From the NCBI RefSeq assembly GCF_013328815.1, contig NZ_JABUHN010000005.1:1-64000 (forward strand): a stretch of DNA of 64,000 nucleotides, given 5' to 3'. The position numbers and the translations under genes are program-made. Positions 53,087-64,000 of the stretch are shown piece after piece. The notes beneath the pieces are model-generated. The model ran no database searches. It saw only the letters and a program-made list of their open reading frames with translations, and was not told where the DNA came from. This stretch comes from Tabrizicola fusiformis. Lineage in GTDB: Bacteria > Pseudomonadota > Alphaproteobacteria > Rhodobacterales > Rhodobacteraceae. The stretch's first letter is position 1, and each line of letters starts with the position of its first letter.

Positions 53087-54757
53087 TTAGTGCCCGTGGG
53101 CGTGGTCCCAGTCGGACCGCTTGGGCAGCTGCTCGAACGTGTGTTCGGGCGGCGGGCAGGGCAGGGTCCATTCCAGCGTGTCGGCATGTTCGTTCCAGTA
53201 GTTGTTCACCGTGATCTTCTTGCCGAAGAACAGGGTGTAGAACACGATGCCGATGAAGAACACAAAGGACGCGGCCGAGATGAAAGCGCCGATCGACGAC
53301 AGGTGGTTCCAGTAGGCGAAAGCCTCGGGATAGTCGATGTAGCGGCGCGGCATCCCTTGGCGGCCCAGGAAGTGCTGCGGGAAGAAGGTCAGGTTCGAGC
53401 CGATGAACATGGCAAAGAAGTGAACCTTGCCCGCCCATTCCGGGTATTGCCGGCCCGACATCTTGCCGATCCAGAAGTAGATGCCCGCGAAGATGCCGAA
53501 GACGGCGCCCAGGCTCATCACATAGTGGAAGTGCGCCACGACATAATAGGTGTCGTGATAGGCGCGGTCCACGGGGGCCTGGCTCAGGACGATGCCGGTC
53601 ACGCCGCCCACGGTGAAGAGGAACAGGAAGCCGAAGGCCCAGAGCATCGGCGTCTTGAACTCGATCGAGCCGCCCCACATCGTGGCGATCCACGAGAACA
53701 CCTTGATGCCGGTCGGCACCGCGATGACCATGGTGGCCAGCATGAAGTAGCTTTGCTGGGTCAGCGACATGCCGACCGTATACATGTGGTGCGCCCAGAC
53801 GACGAAGCCCAGCACCCCGATGGCGACCATCGCATAGACCATCGGCAGGTAACCGAAGATCGGCTTGCGCGAGAAGGTCGAGATGACCTGGCTGATGATG
53901 CCGAAGGCCGGGATCACGATGATATACACTTCGGGGTGGCCGAAGAACCACAGGATGTGCTGATACAGGATCGGGTCACCGCCGCCCGAGGGCTGGAAGA
54001 AGGTGGTGCCGAAGTTGCGGTCGGTCAGCAGCATGGTGATGGCGCCGGCCAGCACGGGCAGCGACAAGAGGATCAGCCAGGAGGTCACGAAGATCGACCA
54101 GCCGAACAGCGGCACCTTGTGCAGGGTCATGCCGGGGGCACGCATGTTCAGGAAGGTGGTGATCATGTTGATCGCGCCAAGGATCGACGAAGCGCCCGAC
54201 AGGTGAACGGCGAAGATCGCCAGGTCCATCGAATAGCCGGCCTCCGAGGTGGACAGCGGCGGATAGAGAACCCAGCCCACGCCCGACCCCAGTTGGTCAT
54301 TGCCGCCCGGCGACACGACCGACGCCACGGCCAGCGAGGTGCCCGCGACATACATCCAGTAGGAAAGGTTGTTCATGCGCGGGAAAGCCATGTCCGGCGC
54401 CCCGATCTGCAACGGCATGAAATAGTTGCCGAAGCCGCCGAAGAGCGCCGGAATGACCACGAAGAACATCATCAGGATGCCGTGGGCCGTCACCGTCACG
54501 TTCCAGACGTGGCCGTTGGGCGTGCATTCACGGGCCGCATCGGCCACAAGGCGCATCCCCTCGGCACACATGTATTGCACGCCGGGGTTCATCAGCTCCA
54601 GCCGCATGTAGACCGTGAAGATCACCGAGATCAGGCCGACAAGGCCCCCGGTGAACAGATAGAGGATCCCGATATCCTTGTGGTTCGTCGACATGAACCA
54701 GCGGGTGAAGAACCCTTTTTGGTCATGGTCGTGGCCATGGATGGCTGCGTCGGCCAT
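53087..54757 (-). CDS. ctaD: Cytochrome c oxidase subunit I (aa3 type)
   Basis: A 556-residue subunit of the aa3 oxidase: [30 protein letters not shown] at the start, heme-a ligand histidine in the [27 protein letters not shown] region, [18 protein letters not shown] with the cross-linked His-Tyr pair, [10 protein letters not shown] and [12 protein letters not shown]. About 12 membrane segments. It pumps protons with oxygen as acceptor. The cytochrome c gene is 203 bases away in the same direction, similar to the cycA-ctaD neighbourhood in Paracoccus denitrificans. Other subunit genes are absent from this window. Confidence 0.97.
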
Positions 54758-56427: not shown

Positions 56428-57600
56428 TCAGTTCGCCTGCGGCCCGCAGGCCCGGGCAAGGCTGTGCATCAGGCATTGCGTTTGCAGCCGCAAGGCGGGG
56501 TTCAGTGCCATCGGCCAGGTTGAAAGCTTGACGCCGACGAAATCGCGCGCCGGGTCGATGAAGATCATCTGGCCATAGACTCCAAGGGCGAGGGTGACGG
56601 GGCGGGCGGTATCCTCGATCCAGAACTGGTTGCGATAGGCCCCGTTCGGGCGGTCGGCGCGGTAGCGGGCGGGAAAGCGGCTGGCGTCACCCTGCCGGGT
56701 CTGCGCCACCCAGTCCGCCGGAACGATCTGACGGCCATTCGCGGCGCCTTCCTGCGCGAAGATCAGGCCAAAACGGGCCAGATCGGGCAGCGTGGCCGAC
56801 AGCGCGCCATCGGCGATGGTGGCGCCTTCGGGGTCAAGGCCAAAGCTGGCAGGGTGGGCGGCGCCCATCGGTTGCCAGATCAGGTCTGACACCAGTTGCG
56901 GCAGGGGCGCGCTGGCGGCGGCTTCGAGGCAGAAACCCAAGACCTCGGTCTCCATCGAGCGGTATTCGAATTCGGCGCCGTGGGGGCGGGTCTGGTGGCG
57001 CAGGCTGCGGATCAGGGTGCGCAGGCTGCGCGGGGCAGAGGTTCCGGGCGGGGCCGGTTTCCACCCCACGGCAATGTCCATCAAGCCGATGCCCGAGGCG
57101 GGATCAGGCGCATCTTCGGGGAAATCGACACCGCTGGTCATGTCGAGCAACTGGCGGATCGTGACCGCGGCATAGGCGCTGCCGGCGAAATCGGGGACAT
57201 AGGCGGCCACGCTGCGGTTCAGGTCCAGATCCCCCGCGCCATGCAACACGCCGGCCACAGCGCCGACGACCGATTTTGACACCGATTGCGTCAGATGCGG
57301 CGTGTCGGGGCGCAGGCCGTTTTCGTAGTGGCTGCAAACCACCTGTCCGCGATGCAGTGCGATCAGCCCGTCGGTCCATGAACCGGCCAGAAGCCGGGCG
57401 GCGGTGGAATTGCCCGGCAAGGGAAGGTTGACCTGATCAAGCGCGGCTTGCGCGGGCGCCTCGGGCAGCGGCAGCGGCGTGGCGGCGCAGGCGATGGGCG
57501 CCACTGGAACAATCTCGGCCAGATGCTGATAGGACCAGCGGTTGAAGGGCGCGCGATCCCAGTTCGACAGGTCCAGCCCGGCGGGGCGATCAGCTTGCAT
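56428..57600 (-). CDS. Serine hydrolase, beta-lactamase/6-aminohexanoate-dimer-hydrolase type
   Basis: A 390-residue protein with the class C/NylB fold. The SxxK nucleophile motif is SVSK at 106-109, DLDLNRSVAAYVPDFAGSAYAAVTIRQLLDMTSGVDF is typical, and FEYRSMETEVLGFCLE supplies the tyrosine region. The family includes esterases, amidases and 6-aminohexanoate-dimer hydrolases. No signal peptide. The ATG at 57600 overlaps the GMC gene by 11 bases. Last gene of a leftward four-gene operon. Confidence 0.87.
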   Translation of the reverse strand: MQADRPAGLDLSNWDRAPFNRWSYQHLAEIVPVAPIACAATPLPLPEAPAQAALDQVNLPLPGNSTAARLLAGSWTDGLIALHRGQVVCSHYENGLRPDTPHLTQSVSKSVVGAVAGVLHGAGDLDLNRSVAAYVPDFAGSAYAAVTIRQLLDMTSGVDFPEDAPDPASGIGLMDIAVGWKPAPPGTSAPRSLRTLIRSLRHQTRPHGAEFEYRSMETEVLGFCLEAAASAPLPQLVSDLIWQPMGAAHPASFGLDPEGATIADGALSATLPDLARFGLIFAQEGAANGRQIVPADWVAQTRQGDASRFPARYRADRPNGAYRNQFWIEDTARPVTLALGVYGQMIFIDPARDFVGVKLSTWPMALNPALRLQTQCLMHSLARACGPQAN

Positions 57601-59212
57601 CGGCAAGAATCATGTCGGCGGCCTTTTCGGCGATCATCACCACGGCGGCATGGGTGTTGCCGCGCACGACCCGCGGCATGACCGAGGCATCGACCACCCG
57701 CAGCCCGGCCAGCCCGCGCAGCCGCAGCCGCGGGTCAAGCACCGAGGCCGCATCGCCACCCATCCGGCAGGTGCCCACGGCATGGATGTCGGACCCGGCC
57801 TTGTCGCGGATGAATTGCAGGATTTCATCGTCCGAGCGCACATCGGCGCCGGGCTGCAACTCGCTGGCGATATAGGGACGCAGGGCAGGCTGTTCGCAGA
57901 TGCTGCGGATCAGACGGATGCCGAAGGTCATGGCGCGGATGTCATAATCGGTCTGGAAGAAGTTGAAGCGGATCTCGGGTCGGCCATCCGGCGTGGTCAG
58001 CCGCACCGTGCCGCGTGCGTCGGGGTTCACATGTTCGGGGCTGAAGCTGAAGCCCGAAAACGGATGGGCGCGGGCGCCCGATGCCGAACGCTCCGCCACG
58101 CTCCATGCGGCAAGGGCCATCTGGATATCGGGGCGGTCCTGCGTGGCATCGGATCGGGCAAAGCCGCCGACATAGATGCCGGTTTCCGAGAAATATCCCC
58201 GGCGGCCAAAGACATATTGCGCCCCGGCCCAGGCGCCGCGCAGCCAGTTGTTGGCAAGGTCGTTGACCGTAATCGGTCTGGTGCAGCGGAACATCAGTTG
58301 CACGCAGGTATGGTCCTGCAGATTGCGGCCCACCTCGGGCGCGTCCAGCACGGGCGCGATGCCAAGGGTGCGCAACTCTTCCGCCGGACCGATGCCCGAT
58401 TGCAGCAGAAGCTGGGGCGAGGCGATGGCCCCTGCGGCCACAATCACCTCGCCCGCATGGGCAAGATGCGGCTGGCCCGCCCTGTCGAATGCAACGCCGG
58501 TGACGCGGCCTTCGCTGATGATCAGCCTGCGGGCGATGGCCTCGGTCAATATCCGCAGGTTGGGCCGGTTGCGGGCGGGCCAGAGATAGCCGCGCGCAGC
58601 ACTCCAGCGTTGGCCCTTGTGGGTGTTCATCTGGTAATAGCCGAAGCCGTCCTGCGTGGCGCCGTTGAAATCGGGATTGTCGGGCAGCCCGGCCTGACGC
58701 GCGGCGGCGCAGGCGGCCTCGGCCAGTTCGGGCCGGGACTGGTCGGACACTTTCAGCGGTCCGCCGATGCCATGCCATTGGTCGGCGCCGCGGGCCTGAT
58801 CCTCGGCCTTTCGGAAATAGGGCAGCACCTCGTCATAGGACCAGCCGGTGCAACCCTGCGCCGCCCAGTCGTCAAAGTCGAGGGCGTTGCCGCGCACATA
58901 CATCATGCCGTTGATCGAGGAGGAGCCGCCCAGCACCTTGCCGCGCGGCTGATACAGGCTGCGCCCGTTCAGCGCCGGTTCGCGGGCGCTGTCATACATC
59001 CAGTTGTAGCGCGGATTGGCGTAGAGTTTGGCAAAGCCCATCGGCAGGCGGAACCACAGGCTGCTGTCGTCAGGCCCGGCTTCCAGCAGGAGGACGCTGT
59101 GGCGGCCGGATTCACTCAGCCGGGCAGCCAGCACGCTGCCGGCCGAGCCGGAGCCGATGACGATGAAATCATAGCGTCCGGCATCGGTGGGTTCAGGGCG
59201 GGTGTTGGTCAT
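57590..59212 (-). CDS. GMC family oxidoreductase (choline dehydrogenase-like)
   Basis: A 540-residue FAD enzyme. It has YDFIVIGSGSAGSVLAARLSE (FAD site), GKVLGGSSSINGMMYVRG (GMC signature 1), GAIASPQLLLQSGIGP (signature 2) and the C-terminal DIHAVGTCRMGGD and NTHAAVVMIAEKAADMI with the catalytic His and Asn/His pair. Such enzymes oxidise alcohols to aldehydes or ketones. It overlaps the serine hydrolase by 11 bases and lies 22 bases after the RraA-type gene. The alcohol substrate is unknown. Confidence 0.93.
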   Translation of the reverse strand: MTNTRPEPTDAGRYDFIVIGSGSAGSVLAARLSESGRHSVLLLEAGPDDSSLWFRLPMGFAKLYANPRYNWMYDSAREPALNGRSLYQPRGKVLGGSSSINGMMYVRGNALDFDDWAAQGCTGWSYDEVLPYFRKAEDQARGADQWHGIGGPLKVSDQSRPELAEAACAAARQAGLPDNPDFNGATQDGFGYYQMNTHKGQRWSAARGYLWPARNRPNLRILTEAIARRLIISEGRVTGVAFDRAGQPHLAHAGEVIVAAGAIASPQLLLQSGIGPAEELRTLGIAPVLDAPEVGRNLQDHTCVQLMFRCTRPITVNDLANNWLRGAWAGAQYVFGRRGYFSETGIYVGGFARSDATQDRPDIQMALAAWSVAERSASGARAHPFSGFSFSPEHVNPDARGTVRLTTPDGRPEIRFNFFQTDYDIRAMTFGIRLIRSICEQPALRPYIASELQPGADVRSDDEILQFIRDKAGSDIHAVGTCRMGGDAASVLDPRLRLRGLAGLRVVDASVMPRVVRGNTHAAVVMIAEKAADMILADAS

Positions 59213-59234
59213 GATGGTTCCTTGGCCGCAGAGG

Positions 59235-59855
59235 TCAGAGATACTTGCGCAGGTCGAGCAGGTCGAGCGTCAAGGCCCCCGCCGCCAGATCGCGGCGCAG
59301 CGCCTGTTCCTGCGCCAGTCTTGCCCGGGTTCCGGCCAGCACGCTGTCGATTTCGGCGCGGGGCACGATGCAGATGCCGTCATCATCGGCCACCACCAGA
59401 TCGCCCGGGCTGACCGGGCAGCCGCCGAATTGCACGGTCTGGCCCAGCGTGCCCGGGGCGGTCTTGGTGGCGCCGCGGATCGCCAATCCGCGCGACCAGA
59501 CGGGAAAGCCCATGCGGCGCAACTCGGCGGCATCGCGGCAGAACCCGTCAATCACCACCCCGGCCAGCCCGCGTTGCAGCGCGGCCTCGGCCAGAATGTC
59601 GCCCAGATAGCCGCAAGCCTCGCCATGGCCGATGGCGACCAGAACCTGCCCGCCGCCCGGCTCGGCCTCGGCAATCGCGCGGTGGATGGCCAGATTGTCG
59701 CCCCGGGCGCAGATCGCGGTGAGGGCGGGGCCCGCCACGGCAAGGCCGGGGCAGATGGCGCGGATGGCGGGGGAGACATCGCCCTTGCGGCCATAGGCTT
59801 CGTGCACGGTGGCGCTTCCGGCGCGGCGGAAGGTTTCAAAGGCGGTCTCAGTCAT
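59235..59855 (-). CDS. RraA family protein (aldolase/decarboxylase type)
   Basis: A 206-residue protein of the RraA/HMG-CHA aldolase superfamily. Typical parts are GSATVHEAYGRKG (10-20s), PGLAVAGPALTAICARGDNLAIHRAI, GEACGYLGDILAEAALQRGLAGVVIDGFCRD (metal and substrate site, R and D) and GFPVWSRGLA. In catabolic loci this family often acts as 4-hydroxy-4-methyl-2-oxoglutarate aldolase or oxaloacetate decarboxylase rather than as RNase E inhibitor. Start overlaps the VOC stop by 8 bases. Confidence 0.86.
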   Translation of the reverse strand: MTETAFETFRRAGSATVHEAYGRKGDVSPAIRAICPGLAVAGPALTAICARGDNLAIHRAIAEAEPGGGQVLVAIGHGEACGYLGDILAEAALQRGLAGVVIDGFCRDAAELRRMGFPVWSRGLAIRGATKTAPGTLGQTVQFGGCPVSPGDLVVADDDGICIVPRAEIDSVLAGTRARLAQEQALRRDLAAGALTLDLLDLRKYL

Positions 59856-60228
59856 CCTGTTGCTCCATCAACTCGATCCGGCAGCCGGGAAGGGGTTCGA
59901 AAAAGGCGATATCGCGGGTGCCGAAGCCGCCGCTGATGCGCTGGGGCGGGTGTATCAGCGCCCCGGCCCAGGCCGGGTTGGCCAGCATCGCGGCCAGATC
60001 GGGGACGCCATAGCTGGCATGAAGAAAGCCGGGCGCGGGGGGGCTGCCGGGCCGGTCATAAAGGGCCACCTCAAAGAAGTTGACCTTCACGCCGCCGAAT
60101 TCGGCTTCGAGAAAGCGGTCTTCGCCAATCTGGTGCATCGCCCGCCAGCGCCAGCCGGGGGTGTTGGCCACCATCGCTTCGGCCTCGGCAATGCGGGCCA
60201 CCCGGAAGGCAAGGTTTACAAGTTTCAT
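59848..60228 (-). CDS. VOC family protein, first gene of the right-end leftward operon
   Basis: A 126-residue protein. The N-terminal strand MKLVNLAFRVARIAEAEAMVANTPGW, VKVNFFEVALYDRPG and the C-terminal DIAFFEPLPGCRIELMEQ follow the VOC half-barrel. It may be a lyase or dioxygenase-like enzyme, or a binding protein. ATG at 60228. It overlaps the RraA-type gene. Transcribed away from the ABC importer across a 207-base spacer. Confidence 0.78.
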   Translation of the reverse strand: MKLVNLAFRVARIAEAEAMVANTPGWRWRAMHQIGEDRFLEAEFGGVKVNFFEVALYDRPGSPPAPGFLHASYGVPDLAAMLANPAWAGALIHPPQRISGGFGTRDIAFFEPLPGCRIELMEQQDD

Positions 60229-60289
60229 CGTGCGAGCGTCTCCGCGTTCTGCCTGCAACCGGAGTAACCGTGTGTGGCGGCTGGTTCAA

Positions 60290-60345
60290 GTGATATTGTG
60301 ATATGAGATACAAGTATTGTTCTATGCGATCAAAACCGGTTGACA
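60290..60345. promoter_or_regulatory. Divergent promoter/operator region, right-end operon and ABC importer
   Basis: Within the 207-base spacer, two direct copies of GTGATAT (60290-60296 and 60298-60304) lie in an AT-rich patch. TTGACA at 60340-60345 fits a -35 box for the ABC genes, with a weak -10 about 20 bases on. No regulator gene is adjacent in the window. By-eye prediction. Confidence 0.4.
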
Positions 60346-60435
60346 TCGGCTGGAATCGGTCGCAGTCTCATTGCTGTGTTGCGAACTCAACAATAAACCG
60401 CGCTGAAAACCGGCGCATCGACATGGGAGACAGAG

Positions 60436-61476
60436 ATGAGAACACTGGTTATGGCTGCCGGGCTTGTGGCCGCGGGCGGGGCCGTCTGGGCCGAGGGTGT
60501 GACGCTGACGCTGAATACCCCCGGCGGTGCGGTTCTGGAGGGCGGCAATGCCGTGCTGTGGGGGCCGGCTGCGGCCGAACTGGGCTATGAGGTCAAGATC
60601 GAGACCTCGGACAACTCGCTGGACGCGCTGCGGTTGCAGGTGGGGGCGAATGCGGTGAGCACCGATATCATCGTGATGAGCGGCTATCAGTCGGCCATCG
60701 CGGCGAATGAAGGGATGCTGGCGCCGCTCGACTACAACGTGATCGACGCCAAGGATTTCGTCGAAGGTGCCGCCACCCCCTATTGCATCGGCATCTATGG
60801 TTATGCCGCCGTGATGGCCTGGAACACCAAGACCTATCCCGACAAGGCCCCCGCCAGCTGGGCCGATTTCTGGGATACCGAGGCTTTCCCGGGCCGCCGG
60901 GCGATGCGGGCCGATGCCGAGGCGCAGGTGGAAATGGCGCTGCTGTCGCAGGGCGTGGCCCCGGCGGACCTCTATACCGTGCTGGCCACAGAAGAGGGGA
61001 TGCAGCGCGCGATTGACCGGATTGCCGAGCTGAAGCCGGAAATCGCGGTCTGGTGGAATTCGGGCGCGCAGCATGGCCAGTTGATGCTGGACGGCGAGGT
61101 GGACATGACCACCGGCTGGAACGGGCGGTTCCAGACCGCCAAGGCCAACGGCGGCCCGGTGGAATTCACCTATAATCAGGGCATTCTGGCCTATGACTGC
61201 TTTGCCATTCCGGCGGCCTCGCAGCACAAGGAAGAGGCGATGAAGCTGATCAACCTGATGTCGGCGGCCAAGGCGCAGGCGGCATTGACCGGCTATGTCG
61301 CCTATGGTCCGATGAACAAGGCGGCCTTCGACACCGGACTGATCGCGCCCGAGGTGGCGGCGGTGCTGCCGACCAGCCCGCAAAATTCCGGCTCGATGAT
61401 CGTGCAGGACATCACCTGGTGGGCGGCCAACAATGACCGCATCCAGCAGATGTTCGAAGACATGATGACGCAATAA
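60436..61476 (+). CDS. ABC transporter substrate-binding protein (polyamine/PotD type)
   Basis: A 346-residue periplasmic binding protein. Signal peptide 1-19 (VMAAGLVAAGGAVWA), then SDNSLDALRLQVGANAVSTDIIVMSGYQSAIAANEGML, GIYGYAAVMAWNTKTYP, WDTEAFPGRRAM and NQGILAYDCFAIPAASQHKEEAMKLINLM. These are characteristic of the PotD/spermidine-putrescine-type family, whose members also bind other cations and organic compounds. First gene of a four-gene rightward operon with the ATPase 15 bases later. Confidence 0.92.
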   Translation: MRTLVMAAGLVAAGGAVWAEGVTLTLNTPGGAVLEGGNAVLWGPAAAELGYEVKIETSDNSLDALRLQVGANAVSTDIIVMSGYQSAIAANEGMLAPLDYNVIDAKDFVEGAATPYCIGIYGYAAVMAWNTKTYPDKAPASWADFWDTEAFPGRRAMRADAEAQVEMALLSQGVAPADLYTVLATEEGMQRAIDRIAELKPEIAVWWNSGAQHGQLMLDGEVDMTTGWNGRFQTAKANGGPVEFTYNQGILAYDCFAIPAASQHKEEAMKLINLMSAAKAQAALTGYVAYGPMNKAAFDTGLIAPEVAAVLPTSPQNSGSMIVQDITWWAANNDRIQQMFEDMMTQ

Positions 61477-61491
61477 AGACTGCAGGACCAG

Positions 61492-62583
61492 ATGACGGTA
61501 ATCGCCCTTTCGACCGTAGCCCCGCCAGAGACTGGCGGGGCTAGAACCGCAGCCGTCGAGATCGAGGCGCTGTGCAAATCCTATGGCTCGTTCCGCGCGC
61601 TGGATGCGGTGGACCTGTCGGTGCGCCCCGGCGAGTTCATTGCCATTCTGGGCCCCTCGGGGTCGGGCAAGAGCACGCTTCTGATGGCCGTCGCCGGGTT
61701 CTCGCGGCCCGACAGCGGGCGGATCGTCTTTGGCGGCCGCGATATTGTGCGGGAGCCTGCGGCCAAGCGCGGCTTTGGCGTGGTGTTTCAGAATTACGCC
61801 CTCTTTCCGCATATGACGGTGCTGGAAAATGTCGCCTTCCCCTTGCAGGTGCGCAAACTGCGCCCGGCAGAGGCGCGCGAGCGGGCCGAAGCGGCGCTGC
61901 GCACGGTCAAGCTTGACGGTTTCGGCGGGCGGCAGATCGGTGCCCTGTCGGGCGGGCAGCGGCAGCGCGTGGCGCTGGCCCGTGCCATCGTGTTCGAGCC
62001 GCAGATCCTTTTGATGGATGAGCCGCTTTCGGCGCTGGACAAATCGCTGCGCGAGGAAATGCAGATCGAAATCCGCGAGTTGCATGACAAGCTGCGGATC
62101 ACCACGCTGTATGTGACCCATGACCAGCGCGAGGCGCTGACCATTGCCGACCGGATTGCGGTGATGGATCAGGGGCGGATCGTGCAGATCGACACGCCCG
62201 AGGTGATCTATCGCCGTCCGCAGACCTCTTTCGTCGCCCGCTTCATCGGGGAGGCGGCGATCCTGCCGGTGGGGGCGCTTGCCCCCGCGGCGGTGGTGGG
62301 CGCCTTGGCGGCGGGCAGGCCCCGGGCCGTGATCCGCAGCGAGGATTTCTGCCTGACCCCGCCCGGCGGCGATGCGGCACCTGTGCAAGTCTCCGGCAAG
62401 GTGCAGAATCTGGTGTTTCAGGGCGATAGCTGGCTGATCCGGGTGCGGCTGGCGGATGGCACGGCGATTGACGTGCGCGCCCAGCGGCAGTTCAGCGATC
62501 AGGTGGCACGGCTGGCGCCCGGGGCCGAAATTGCGCTTTGGCTGCCCGCCGACCGGCTGCATTTTCTGGCGGAGGAGGCATGA
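61492..62583 (+). CDS. ABC transporter ATP-binding protein (PotA type)
   Basis: A 363-residue ATPase. Walker A is ILGPSGSGKSTLL, the Q-loop is VVFQNYALFPHMTV, the signature LSGGQRQRVALARAIV and Walker B ILLMDEPLSALD, then TLYVTHDQREALTIAD. A TOBE domain follows (about 265-360). It powers uptake of the substrate captured by the preceding binding protein. The next gene overlaps its stop by ATGA. Confidence 0.96.
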   Translation: MTVIALSTVAPPETGGARTAAVEIEALCKSYGSFRALDAVDLSVRPGEFIAILGPSGSGKSTLLMAVAGFSRPDSGRIVFGGRDIVREPAAKRGFGVVFQNYALFPHMTVLENVAFPLQVRKLRPAEARERAEAALRTVKLDGFGGRQIGALSGGQRQRVALARAIVFEPQILLMDEPLSALDKSLREEMQIEIRELHDKLRITTLYVTHDQREALTIADRIAVMDQGRIVQIDTPEVIYRRPQTSFVARFIGEAAILPVGALAPAAVVGALAAGRPRAVIRSEDFCLTPPGGDAAPVQVSGKVQNLVFQGDSWLIRVRLADGTAIDVRAQRQFSDQVARLAPGAEIALWLPADRLHFLAEEA

Positions 62584-63482
62584 GCGCGGCACTTCCCCTT
62601 GGCGAAAACCAGACCGAACTTGCCCGCGACGCGCGGGTGGAGCGGGCTTTGGCCTTTGCGCTGGCACTGCCCTGCCTGATCGTGGTGGCGCTCTGTGTGC
62701 TGATCCCCTGCGGCTGGCTGTTCTATCTGTCGGCCTTCGGCAATGACGGCAGCCTGAGCTGGGAGAATTACGAACGGGTGTCGTCGGGCGCGAGCTATGG
62801 GCGGATATTTATCACCACGTTTGAAGTCAGCCTGCTGACCGTGCTGGCCTGCGTGGGGATCGGCGTGCCCTTCGCGGCCTTTGTCAACAGCCTGCCGCCG
62901 CGGGTGGCGGGGCTGTTCGTGGCGGCGGTGCTGCTGCCGTTCTGGACCTCGCTTCTGGTACGGGCCTATGCGTGGCTGGTGCTGTTGCAGCGCAACGGGC
63001 TGATCAACACCGCGCTGATCGACATGGGGCTGACCGAGGCGCCGCTGGATCTGGCGTTCAACTGGTTTTCCACTGTGCTGGGCATGACCCATATCATGCT
63101 GCCCATCTTCATCCTGCCGGTGCTGGGCGCGATGCGTAACATTGACCCCGGCATGATACGGGCAGCGGCGAGCATGGGGGCAAGCTGGGGGCTGACGATG
63201 CGGCGGGTTTTCCTGCCGCTCGCGGCGCCGGGGATCATCGCGGGGGCGATCCTCGTCTTTGTGATGAGCCTTGGTTTCTATGTCACCCCGGCCATTCTGG
63301 GCGGCGGCAATGTGCAGGTGATCTCGATGCGGATTGCGCGGAGCCTGTCAAACTTCTCCAACTGGGGCGCGGCGAGTGCGCTGGGCGTGCTGTTGCTGCT
63401 GTTCACCGGAGCCTTGCTGGCGCTGGGGCTGATGGCGCAGCGGCTGATCCTTGGCGCGCGGAAAGGGCAGGACCATGCTTGA
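62580..63482 (+). CDS. ABC transporter permease (PotB type)
   Basis: A 300-residue membrane protein with about six hydrophobic segments, and the EAA-like loop AAASMGASWGLTMRRVFLPLAAPGI (around residue 200) that contacts the ATPase. The start ATG at 62580 overlaps the ATPase stop by ATGA. The N-terminal 25 residues are polar, then ALALPCLIVVALCVLIPCGWLFYL forms the first helix. Overlaps the next gene by eight bases. Confidence 0.94.
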   Translation: MSAALPLGENQTELARDARVERALAFALALPCLIVVALCVLIPCGWLFYLSAFGNDGSLSWENYERVSSGASYGRIFITTFEVSLLTVLACVGIGVPFAAFVNSLPPRVAGLFVAAVLLPFWTSLLVRAYAWLVLLQRNGLINTALIDMGLTEAPLDLAFNWFSTVLGMTHIMLPIFILPVLGAMRNIDPGMIRAAASMGASWGLTMRRVFLPLAAPGIIAGAILVFVMSLGFYVTPAILGGGNVQVISMRIARSLSNFSNWGAASALGVLLLLFTGALLALGLMAQRLILGARKGQDHA

Positions 63483-64000
63483 CGGATTTCAGCACAGCCC
63501 CCTGATGACCGGGCTTAAATGGGGGCTGGCCCTGCTCTTGGTGGCGTTTCTGGCGGCGCCGTCCTTTATCGTGGTGCCAATGTCGTTTTCGGCGGGCGAG
63601 TTCCTGCAATTCCCGCCGCAGGAGTATTCGCTGCGCTGGTATCGCAACTTTGCCGGGTCGATCACCTGGACCAGTGCGGCACGCGCCTCGGCCATTGCGG
63701 CGGTGCTGACGACGCTGATTGCGGTGCCGATCGGGGTGCTGGCTGCCTACGGGGTGATGCAGCTCGGCCGGCGGATGCGGATGCTGGTGGGCGGGCTGAT
63801 CGTGCTGCCGGCGGTGATCCCGGCGATCCTGATTGCGGTCGGCATGTTCTTTGTGTTGGCGCGGGCGGGGATGCTGGGCACCATGGCGGGGCTGGTGCTG
63901 GGCCATGTGGCGCTGGCCATTCCGGTGGTCTTTGTGGTGATGACGGCGGCCTTCAGCCAGTTCGACTTTGCTCAGGAAAAGGCGGCGCGCAGTCTGGGCG
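63475..64000 (+). CDS. ABC transporter permease (PotC type), truncated by window edge
   Basis: The first 175 codons of a second permease. MLDGFQHSPLMTGLKWGLALLLVAFLAAPSFIVVPMSFS forms the first helix, and RMLVGGLIVLPAVIPAILIAVGMFFVLARAG and GLVLGHVALAIPVVFVVMTAAF follow; the EAA loop begins at AQEKAARSLG at the edge. The ATG at 63475 lies within the end of the PotB-type gene. Completes an SBP-ATPase-permease-permease importer. Confidence 0.93.
   Translation, partial: MLDGFQHSPLMTGLKWGLALLLVAFLAAPSFIVVPMSFSAGEFLQFPPQEYSLRWYRNFAGSITWTSAARASAIAAVLTTLIAVPIGVLAAYGVMQLGRRMRMLVGGLIVLPAVIPAILIAVGMFFVLARAGMLGTMAGLVLGHVALAIPVVFVVMTAAFSQFDFAQEKAARSLG

Follow-up and report, generated by a model that had tools for sequence, protein, structure and literature searches.

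The last part of a 64,000-base window of the Tabrizicola fusiformis genome, the whole stretch analysed here (bases 1 to 64000 of the 321703 on contig NZ_JABUHN010000005.1), holds two divergent gene sets. Four leftward genes, for a serine hydrolase, a GMC flavin oxidoreductase, an RraA-family protein and a VOC-fold protein, face the genes of an ATP-binding cassette (ABC) importer and its solute-binding protein (SBP). Together with genes beyond the window end at 64000, they make up a unit of 12 genes, from 56428 to 66887, which is a catabolic island of known enzyme families occurring in two bacterial orders. The block seems to have been acquired in one piece, and it probably enables the import and breakdown of one nitrogen-containing organic acid. 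Window genes were taken from open reading frames and from Pfam and NCBIfam scans, as follows.

56428..57606, minus strand: NylB-like SxxK serine hydrolase, 392 aa (PF00144, 117.8 bits)
57590..59212, minus strand: GMC flavin oxidoreductase, alcohol-oxidising type, 540 aa (PF00732 and PF05199)
59235..59855, minus strand: RraA-family aldolase/oxo-acid decarboxylase, 206 aa (NF006731, 180.8 bits, cut-off 179)
59848..60228, minus strand: VOC1, small VOC-fold protein, 126 aa (by predicted structure; no Pfam or NCBIfam family)
60310..60320, no strand: palindrome ACAAGTATTGT in the divergent promoter spacer, candidate IclR operator (only exact ACAA-N3-TTGT in the window)
60436..61476, plus strand: periplasmic SBP, opine/gamma-aminobutyric acid (GABA) subfamily (PF13416; PDB matches 4i1d and MotA)
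61492..62583, plus strand: ABC importer ATPase (PF00005 and TOBE_2)
62580..63482, plus strand: ABC importer permease B (PF00528; PotB-like, under the PotB cut-off)
63475..64000, plus strand: ABC importer permease C, ending past the window at contig base 64269 (PF00528)
Contig 64266-64751, past the window, minus strand: RidA/YjgF protein (PF14588)
Contig 64823-65644, past the window, plus strand: IclR regulator (PF01614/PF09339)
Contig 65648-66157, past the window, minus strand: VOC2 (PF00903)
Contig 66216-66887, past the window, plus strand: ThuA-like protein (PF06283)

A sequence-only reading of the window had described the four leftward genes facing the importer over a 207-base AT-rich spacer, and its families, overlaps and spacing all hold. 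The hydrolase and GMC genes overlap by up to 17 bases, counted from the TTG start of the hydrolase, the GMC and RraA genes are 22 bases apart, and the RraA and VOC1 genes share 8 bases. GC content is 52% in the spacer (60229-60435), against 66% for the window. That reading had also pointed to the sequence past 64000 as a place for further catabolic or regulatory genes; those for RidA, IclR, VOC2 and ThuA lie there, and the unit ends at about 66887. Downstream of the ThuA-like gene come a second PotABCD-like importer, an agmatinase-type ureohydrolase, which scores 184.6 bits with TIGR01230 (cut-off 174.3) but 194.8 with NF002564 (cut-off 302), and then an AEC transporter.

Recurrence of the block and its absence from genus-mates

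A scan of a collection of genomes from 84,980 species with an SBP alignment gave 246 loci, the best 80 of which were analysed. Genes in these relatives were called by a codon-usage script, with known misses (the SBP in two loci, the hydrolase in one), and were labelled by blastp matches to the proteins of the window and its neighbourhood; searches at the level of family, class and phylum used tool-drawn genome samples. All 12 genes recur in the same order and orientation in Mesorhizobium sp. 65-26 (locus L119, 58 to 74% identity), and Mesorhizobium qingshengii (L118) carries the first nine at 54 to 74% identity, the ninth (RidA) being cut by the contig end. Because the same order recurs at 54 to 74% identity in two Mesorhizobium genomes, the arrangement is more than chance. 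The earlier reading had looked to other Rhodobacterales for it; it was found in another order.

The close SBP group consists of eight loci, L112 (a plasmid record) and L118 to L124. In the tree, the window joins L118 and L119 with a support of 1.0; the group of the window, L112 and L118 to L123 has a support of 0.71, and that with L124 added 0.89. A GMC gene lies near the importer in seven of the eight close loci (62 to 74% identity), an IclR gene in five, ThuA in three and VOC2 in one, while the hydrolase, RraA, VOC1 and RidA genes are each present in two; at five loci the importer retains the GMC gene, with the hydrolase, RraA and VOC1 genes not nearby. The remaining 73 loci include a GMC gene in 19 cases (42 to 48% identity) and a single match each for IclR and ThuA, and none contains the hydrolase, RraA or VOC1. 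Judged from these counts, the importer and the GMC enzyme look like the core of the system, and the hydrolase, RraA, VOC1, RidA and VOC2 like an added set. A hydrolase of more than 60% identity was found only in L118 and L119, where it adjoins the importer in both. Outside the clusters, no hydrolase above 48% identity turned up in samples of 149 genomes from the family, 398 from the phylum and 385 from the class, the phylum and class searches being run at strict E-values, and the best plasmid homologue among the matches listed (best 30 of 182 records) has 46.8% identity. VOC1 was detected in two of 149 family and eight of 385 class genomes; each count includes the genome of the window, and the other matches are weak. 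It had no homologue among the viral contigs or plasmids searched.

All three other genomes of the genus examined carry the same site without the 12-gene block: the second importer, with the ureohydrolase and AEC genes, comes immediately after lipB and tRNA-Leu(gag). DNA similarity to these genus-mates breaks off just after the tRNA, at about 56342 in two of them and 56381 in the third; in one genus-mate it returns at 66983, in the other two at 67027. Insertion between tRNA-Leu(gag) and the resident operon is the simplest reading of these breakpoints, with loss in the genus-mates as the alternative. The tRNA 3′ end was considered as an attachment site, and its last 12 to 30 bases have no second copy between contig positions 54000 and 91000. 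Membership of the second importer and the agmatinase in the unit was rejected, both being resident in all three genus-mates; neither was seen within the 10-kb flank of the Mesorhizobium sp. 65-26 cluster, and the gap upstream of this importer contains no copy of the spacer palindrome at up to one mismatch. The SBP of this second importer (contig 67190-72701) has 33% identity to the island SBP.

Next to the M. qingshengii copy, L118:1887-5561 contains a gene resembling that of 3-(3-hydroxyphenyl)propionate hydroxylase (510.9 bits, cut-off 390) and an extradiol-dioxygenase-like VOC gene.

Importer, palindrome and leftward enzymes

The importer had been called polyamine-type in the sequence-only reading, a label that is doubtful. 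The closest solved relatives of the SBP are 4i1d, the opine-binding MotA (E 5e-55), Atu4243, which binds GABA, and others that include an agropinic-acid receptor, with PotD and PotF far lower. Its predicted structure (pLDDT 92) gave Z scores of 43.7 with 4i1d, 42.2 with MotA in complex with mannopinic acid, 38.9 with Atu4243 and 36.4 with AgtB in complex with agropinic acid, compared with 28 to 29 for PotD and PotF; a GABA-bound SAR11 protein that carries the name PotD falls in the upper structural group (Z 36.7). By sequence and fold, the SBP thus belongs to the opine/GABA subfamily, together with Agrobacterium MotA and the Atu4243 GABA receptor, from which it differs in sharing only 31 to 34% identity. 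The gene layout of the MotA importer is presumably like that of the island importer, with different catabolic enzymes. We also aligned the SBP with Escherichia coli PotD, in which the letters of 14 positions that we take to be the ligand pocket were checked. In this alignment of distant proteins, eight of the 14 differ (W34, T35, Y37, R170, E171, S211, W255 and Q327); taken alone, the comparison would be compatible with a polyamine ligand.

A locus of Ruegeria pomeroyi (L113) encodes an SBP of the same family (47 to 48% identity) with a GMC gene nearby. Unlike the island, where the GMC gene is accompanied by those for the hydrolase, RraA, VOC1 and IclR, this locus contains DAO oxidases, an MR/MLE enzyme and a MocR regulator, and its GMC protein is only 47% identical. 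Judging from position and gene order, its gene SPO_RS21765 is probably SPOA0381, which is labelled a spermidine importer in an excerpt of PMC9038784 and a spermidine/putrescine importer in one of PMC9870897. The spermidine label on SPOA0381 looks doubtful, and the mutant-verified polyamine importer of R. pomeroyi is given as potFGHI in an excerpt of PMC10130141. Importers on Agrobacterium and Mesorhizobium plasmids (L114 and L117) have SBPs of 44 to 47% identity, and their neighbours are annotated as Asp/Glu racemase, N-carbamoylsarcosine amidohydrolase, leucyl aminopeptidase and methylthioadenosine phosphorylase, a gene set that looks like one for nicotinate degradation.

The divergent spacer contains the sequence ACAA-N3-TTGT at 60310, its only exact occurrence in the 64000 bases. 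Looked for in the 330 bases that precede the SBP match, this palindrome is exact in four of seven close loci and present with at most one mismatch in six of the seven; in the 73 distant loci, which serve as the control for a motif defined from the sequences in which it was counted, there is no exact copy and one copy with up to one mismatch. Since the IclR gene and the palindrome co-occur, the IclR protein may be its binder. Between VOC2 and ThuA, from contig base 66204 onwards, there is a longer palindrome, ACAACATATGTTGT. No known RNA element was found in the spacer at gathering scores, the 19 kb searched giving tRNA only.

The hydrolase has 6-aminohexanoate-dimer hydrolase (NylB) as its closest PDB relative (E 4e-56), and its residues S108, K111 and Y215 are invariant in 11 of 11 aligned sequences; the catalytic motifs of NylB are described in an excerpt of PMC12073871. 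The best solved relative and the conserved Ser-x-x-Lys and Tyr suggest an amide-cleaving enzyme of the NylB kind. It departs from NylB in lying inside an importer island and at the position of Tyr170, which is weighed below. Its score with the class C beta-lactamase model NF033085 is 22 (cut-off 415), and no signal peptide was recognized by eye, no predictor having been run. Distant hydrolases of the family sample (37 to 45% identity by blastp; L077-L089) can adjoin a different Pot-type importer, as they do in 10 of 19 loci around hydrolase matches. At one of them, L084, an amidase gene is next to that of the NylB-like hydrolase and an Amidohydro_3 (YtcJ-like) gene is nearby, as assigned by Pfam, which looks like amide catabolism.

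The GMC protein scores under the choline dehydrogenase cut-offs (520 against 732 with TIGR01810, 597 against 605 with NF002550), has a His at the position of an Asn in the choline dehydrogenase 9lq0, and matches 8b7s nearly as well as 9lq0. The gene context of its Paracoccus relative gave no clue to the substrate. The RraA protein passed NF006731 narrowly (180.8 against 179) and resembles its closest PDB relative, the 4-carboxy-4-hydroxy-2-oxoadipate/4-hydroxy-4-methyl-2-oxoglutarate aldolase 3noj, in the conserved Arg/Asp pair (R107 and D108). In contrast, it failed the LigK/PcmE equivalog TIGR02798 (164.8 against 304.5), and no recognised enzyme of a ring-cleavage pathway is encoded among the 12 genes. 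VOC1, for which Pfam and NCBIfam gave no family match, has a predicted structure of VOC topology (mean pLDDT 82); with glyoxalase and methylmalonyl-CoA epimerase chains, the best Foldseek E-value is 5.3e-5, and the best rows have TM-scores to the query of about 0.5 to 0.65. Its orthologues in the two Mesorhizobium clusters have 63% identity.

Proposed pathway and competing explanations

We hold with moderate confidence that the 12-gene island serves the uptake and breakdown of one N-substituted amino-acid-like compound. The substrate would be small and carry a carboxylate, a hydroxyl and an amide or similar bond. It would be captured by the opine/GABA-type SBP and taken in by the ABC importer; the GMC flavoenzyme would oxidise its alcohol group, and the NylB-like serine hydrolase would cleave the amide, or possibly a lactam or ester, to release an amino acid. 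The RraA-type enzyme could then split the remaining oxo-acid or decarboxylate it, yielding central metabolites. Reactive intermediates may be handled by RidA and both VOC proteins, and the IclR protein would control the divergent promoters through the ACAA-N3-TTGT site. The gene families, the catalytic residues, the conserved gene order, the absence of the block from genus-mates and the common palindrome are read directly from the sequences; from them we infer the substrate class, the reaction order, the binding of IclR to the site and the roles of the VOC, RidA and ThuA proteins.

The conserved gene order, the palindrome and the presence of the genes as a single block absent from genus-mates support the view that importer and enzymes form one unit. 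To that extent the proposal of the sequence-only reading that the importer serves the leftward enzymes stands, without the polyamine label. Its view of the hydrolase as an amide opener also fits an enzyme of the NylB kind. Its hydrolysis-first order needs changing: because five of the eight close loci keep importer and GMC genes without those for the hydrolase, RraA and VOC1, the core reaction common to these loci seems to be alcohol oxidation, with hydrolysis as an addition.

Several observations weigh against a single pathway of this kind. Subfamily membership of the SBP does not fix its ligand, and six of the 14 PotD pocket positions are conserved in it. Only three copies of the large cluster were found, one of them cut by a contig end. 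The palindrome is missing before the SBP in L124 and in L112, a locus with an upstream IS6 transposase, and does not occur at up to one mismatch in the RidA/IclR gap. The position of NylB Tyr170, a residue presumably important for cleavage of the nylon-dimer amide, is Ala in the window hydrolase, by a hand-counted alignment, and Met or Val in two orthologues. No aldehyde dehydrogenase is present among the 12 genes, and L122 has one (Pfam). Lastly, distant homologues of the hydrolase (34 to 43% identity) and SBP (46 to 48%) lie on separate contigs in five family members, so that the two families are not generally found together. Separation of the operons in relatives, which the earlier reading had named as evidence against itself, is thus true of distant homologues and fails for the close orthologues L118 and L119. 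As a side observation, L123 has a gene, unscanned, that starts similarly to the L122 aldehyde dehydrogenase.

Two independent modules without a common substrate, one of importer and GMC enzyme and the other of hydrolase, RraA and VOC1, might simply adjoin each other, as the five close loci without the hydrolase set and the other importers used by distant hydrolases would suggest. We consider this unlikely, given that the GMC gene sits within the tightly packed leftward operon, that the arrangement is exactly preserved in the three copies found, one of them truncated at a contig end, across two orders at 54 to 74% identity, that the genes form one block absent from genus-mates, and that the palindrome lies in the spacer between both operons. 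It is quite unlikely that the importer is a plain spermidine/putrescine system (PotDABC) and that the leftward enzymes have a separate job. The best NCBIfam names of the SBP, the ATPase and permease B are indeed those of Pot proteins, the distant homologue SPOA0381 carries the polyamine labels cited above, and six of the 14 pocket positions are identical (E36, S83, Y85, D168, W229 and D257), E36 and D168 less surely than D257 and W229. However, the SBP scores 59.8 bits with the PotD equivalog, whose cut-off is 582, E171, W34, W255 and five more pocket positions differ, its structure is nearer to opine/GABA receptors, the importers of the close group are accompanied by a GMC enzyme, and the verified R. 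pomeroyi polyamine importer is potFGHI (excerpt of PMC10130141).

A true opine or Amadori-compound island, for a mannopine-like substrate, would account for MotA (mannopine, mannopinic acid and DFG) being nearest to the SBP in structure among the matches whose ligand is named, and a polyol with an amide would suit the GMC enzyme and the hydrolase. Nevertheless, Pfam and NCBIfam named no opine-specific catabolic enzyme among the 12 genes, and identity to MotA is only about 34%, which makes this explanation very unlikely in our estimation. Detoxification of an antibiotic or xenobiotic appears distinctly improbable: the hydrolase has a beta-lactamase fold, the GMC protein is related to a chloramphenicol-inactivating oxidoreductase (its match to 8b7s nearly equals that to 9lq0), and a major facilitator superfamily (MFS) protein, which scores 175 bits with the Cmx/CmrA family model (cut-off 400), is encoded beside the reduced version in L121, but the class C beta-lactamase score falls far below its cut-off, the 12 genes include no MFS gene, and the dedicated importer, aldolase and RidA would suit catabolism better. 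A gene resembling the L121 MFS gene, unscanned, is found in L120.

Within the preferred reading of one uptake and breakdown pathway, pantothenate (vitamin B5) or a similar N-acyl omega-amino acid is a highly improbable but specific candidate substrate. The SBP would then take up the N-substituted amino acid, the alcohol of pantoate would be oxidised by the GMC enzyme, and the oxo-acid so formed would be decarboxylated or split by the RraA enzyme. Because the leaving group of NylB is an omega-amino acid, the NylB-like hydrolase could act as a pantothenase-type enzyme; the protein identity of pantothenase was stated as unknown in 2023 in an excerpt of PMC10393543.

Significance for importer annotation

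The sequence-only reading knew no pathway by name for this gene set, and none under a published name was found in the open-access full-text literature, within the wording searched; nor was a paper on this combination of known enzyme families, for which the proposed mechanism is plausible. The island is a catabolic cartridge that is complete in itself, with an importer and a regulator of its own, and that appears to be transferable. It is present in two bacterial orders, and one binding assay could make a pathway of its 12 genes. More generally, as the spermidine-labelled SPOA0381 belongs to the same broad family, "PotD-like" importers in Alphaproteobacteria are not safely read as polyamine importers.

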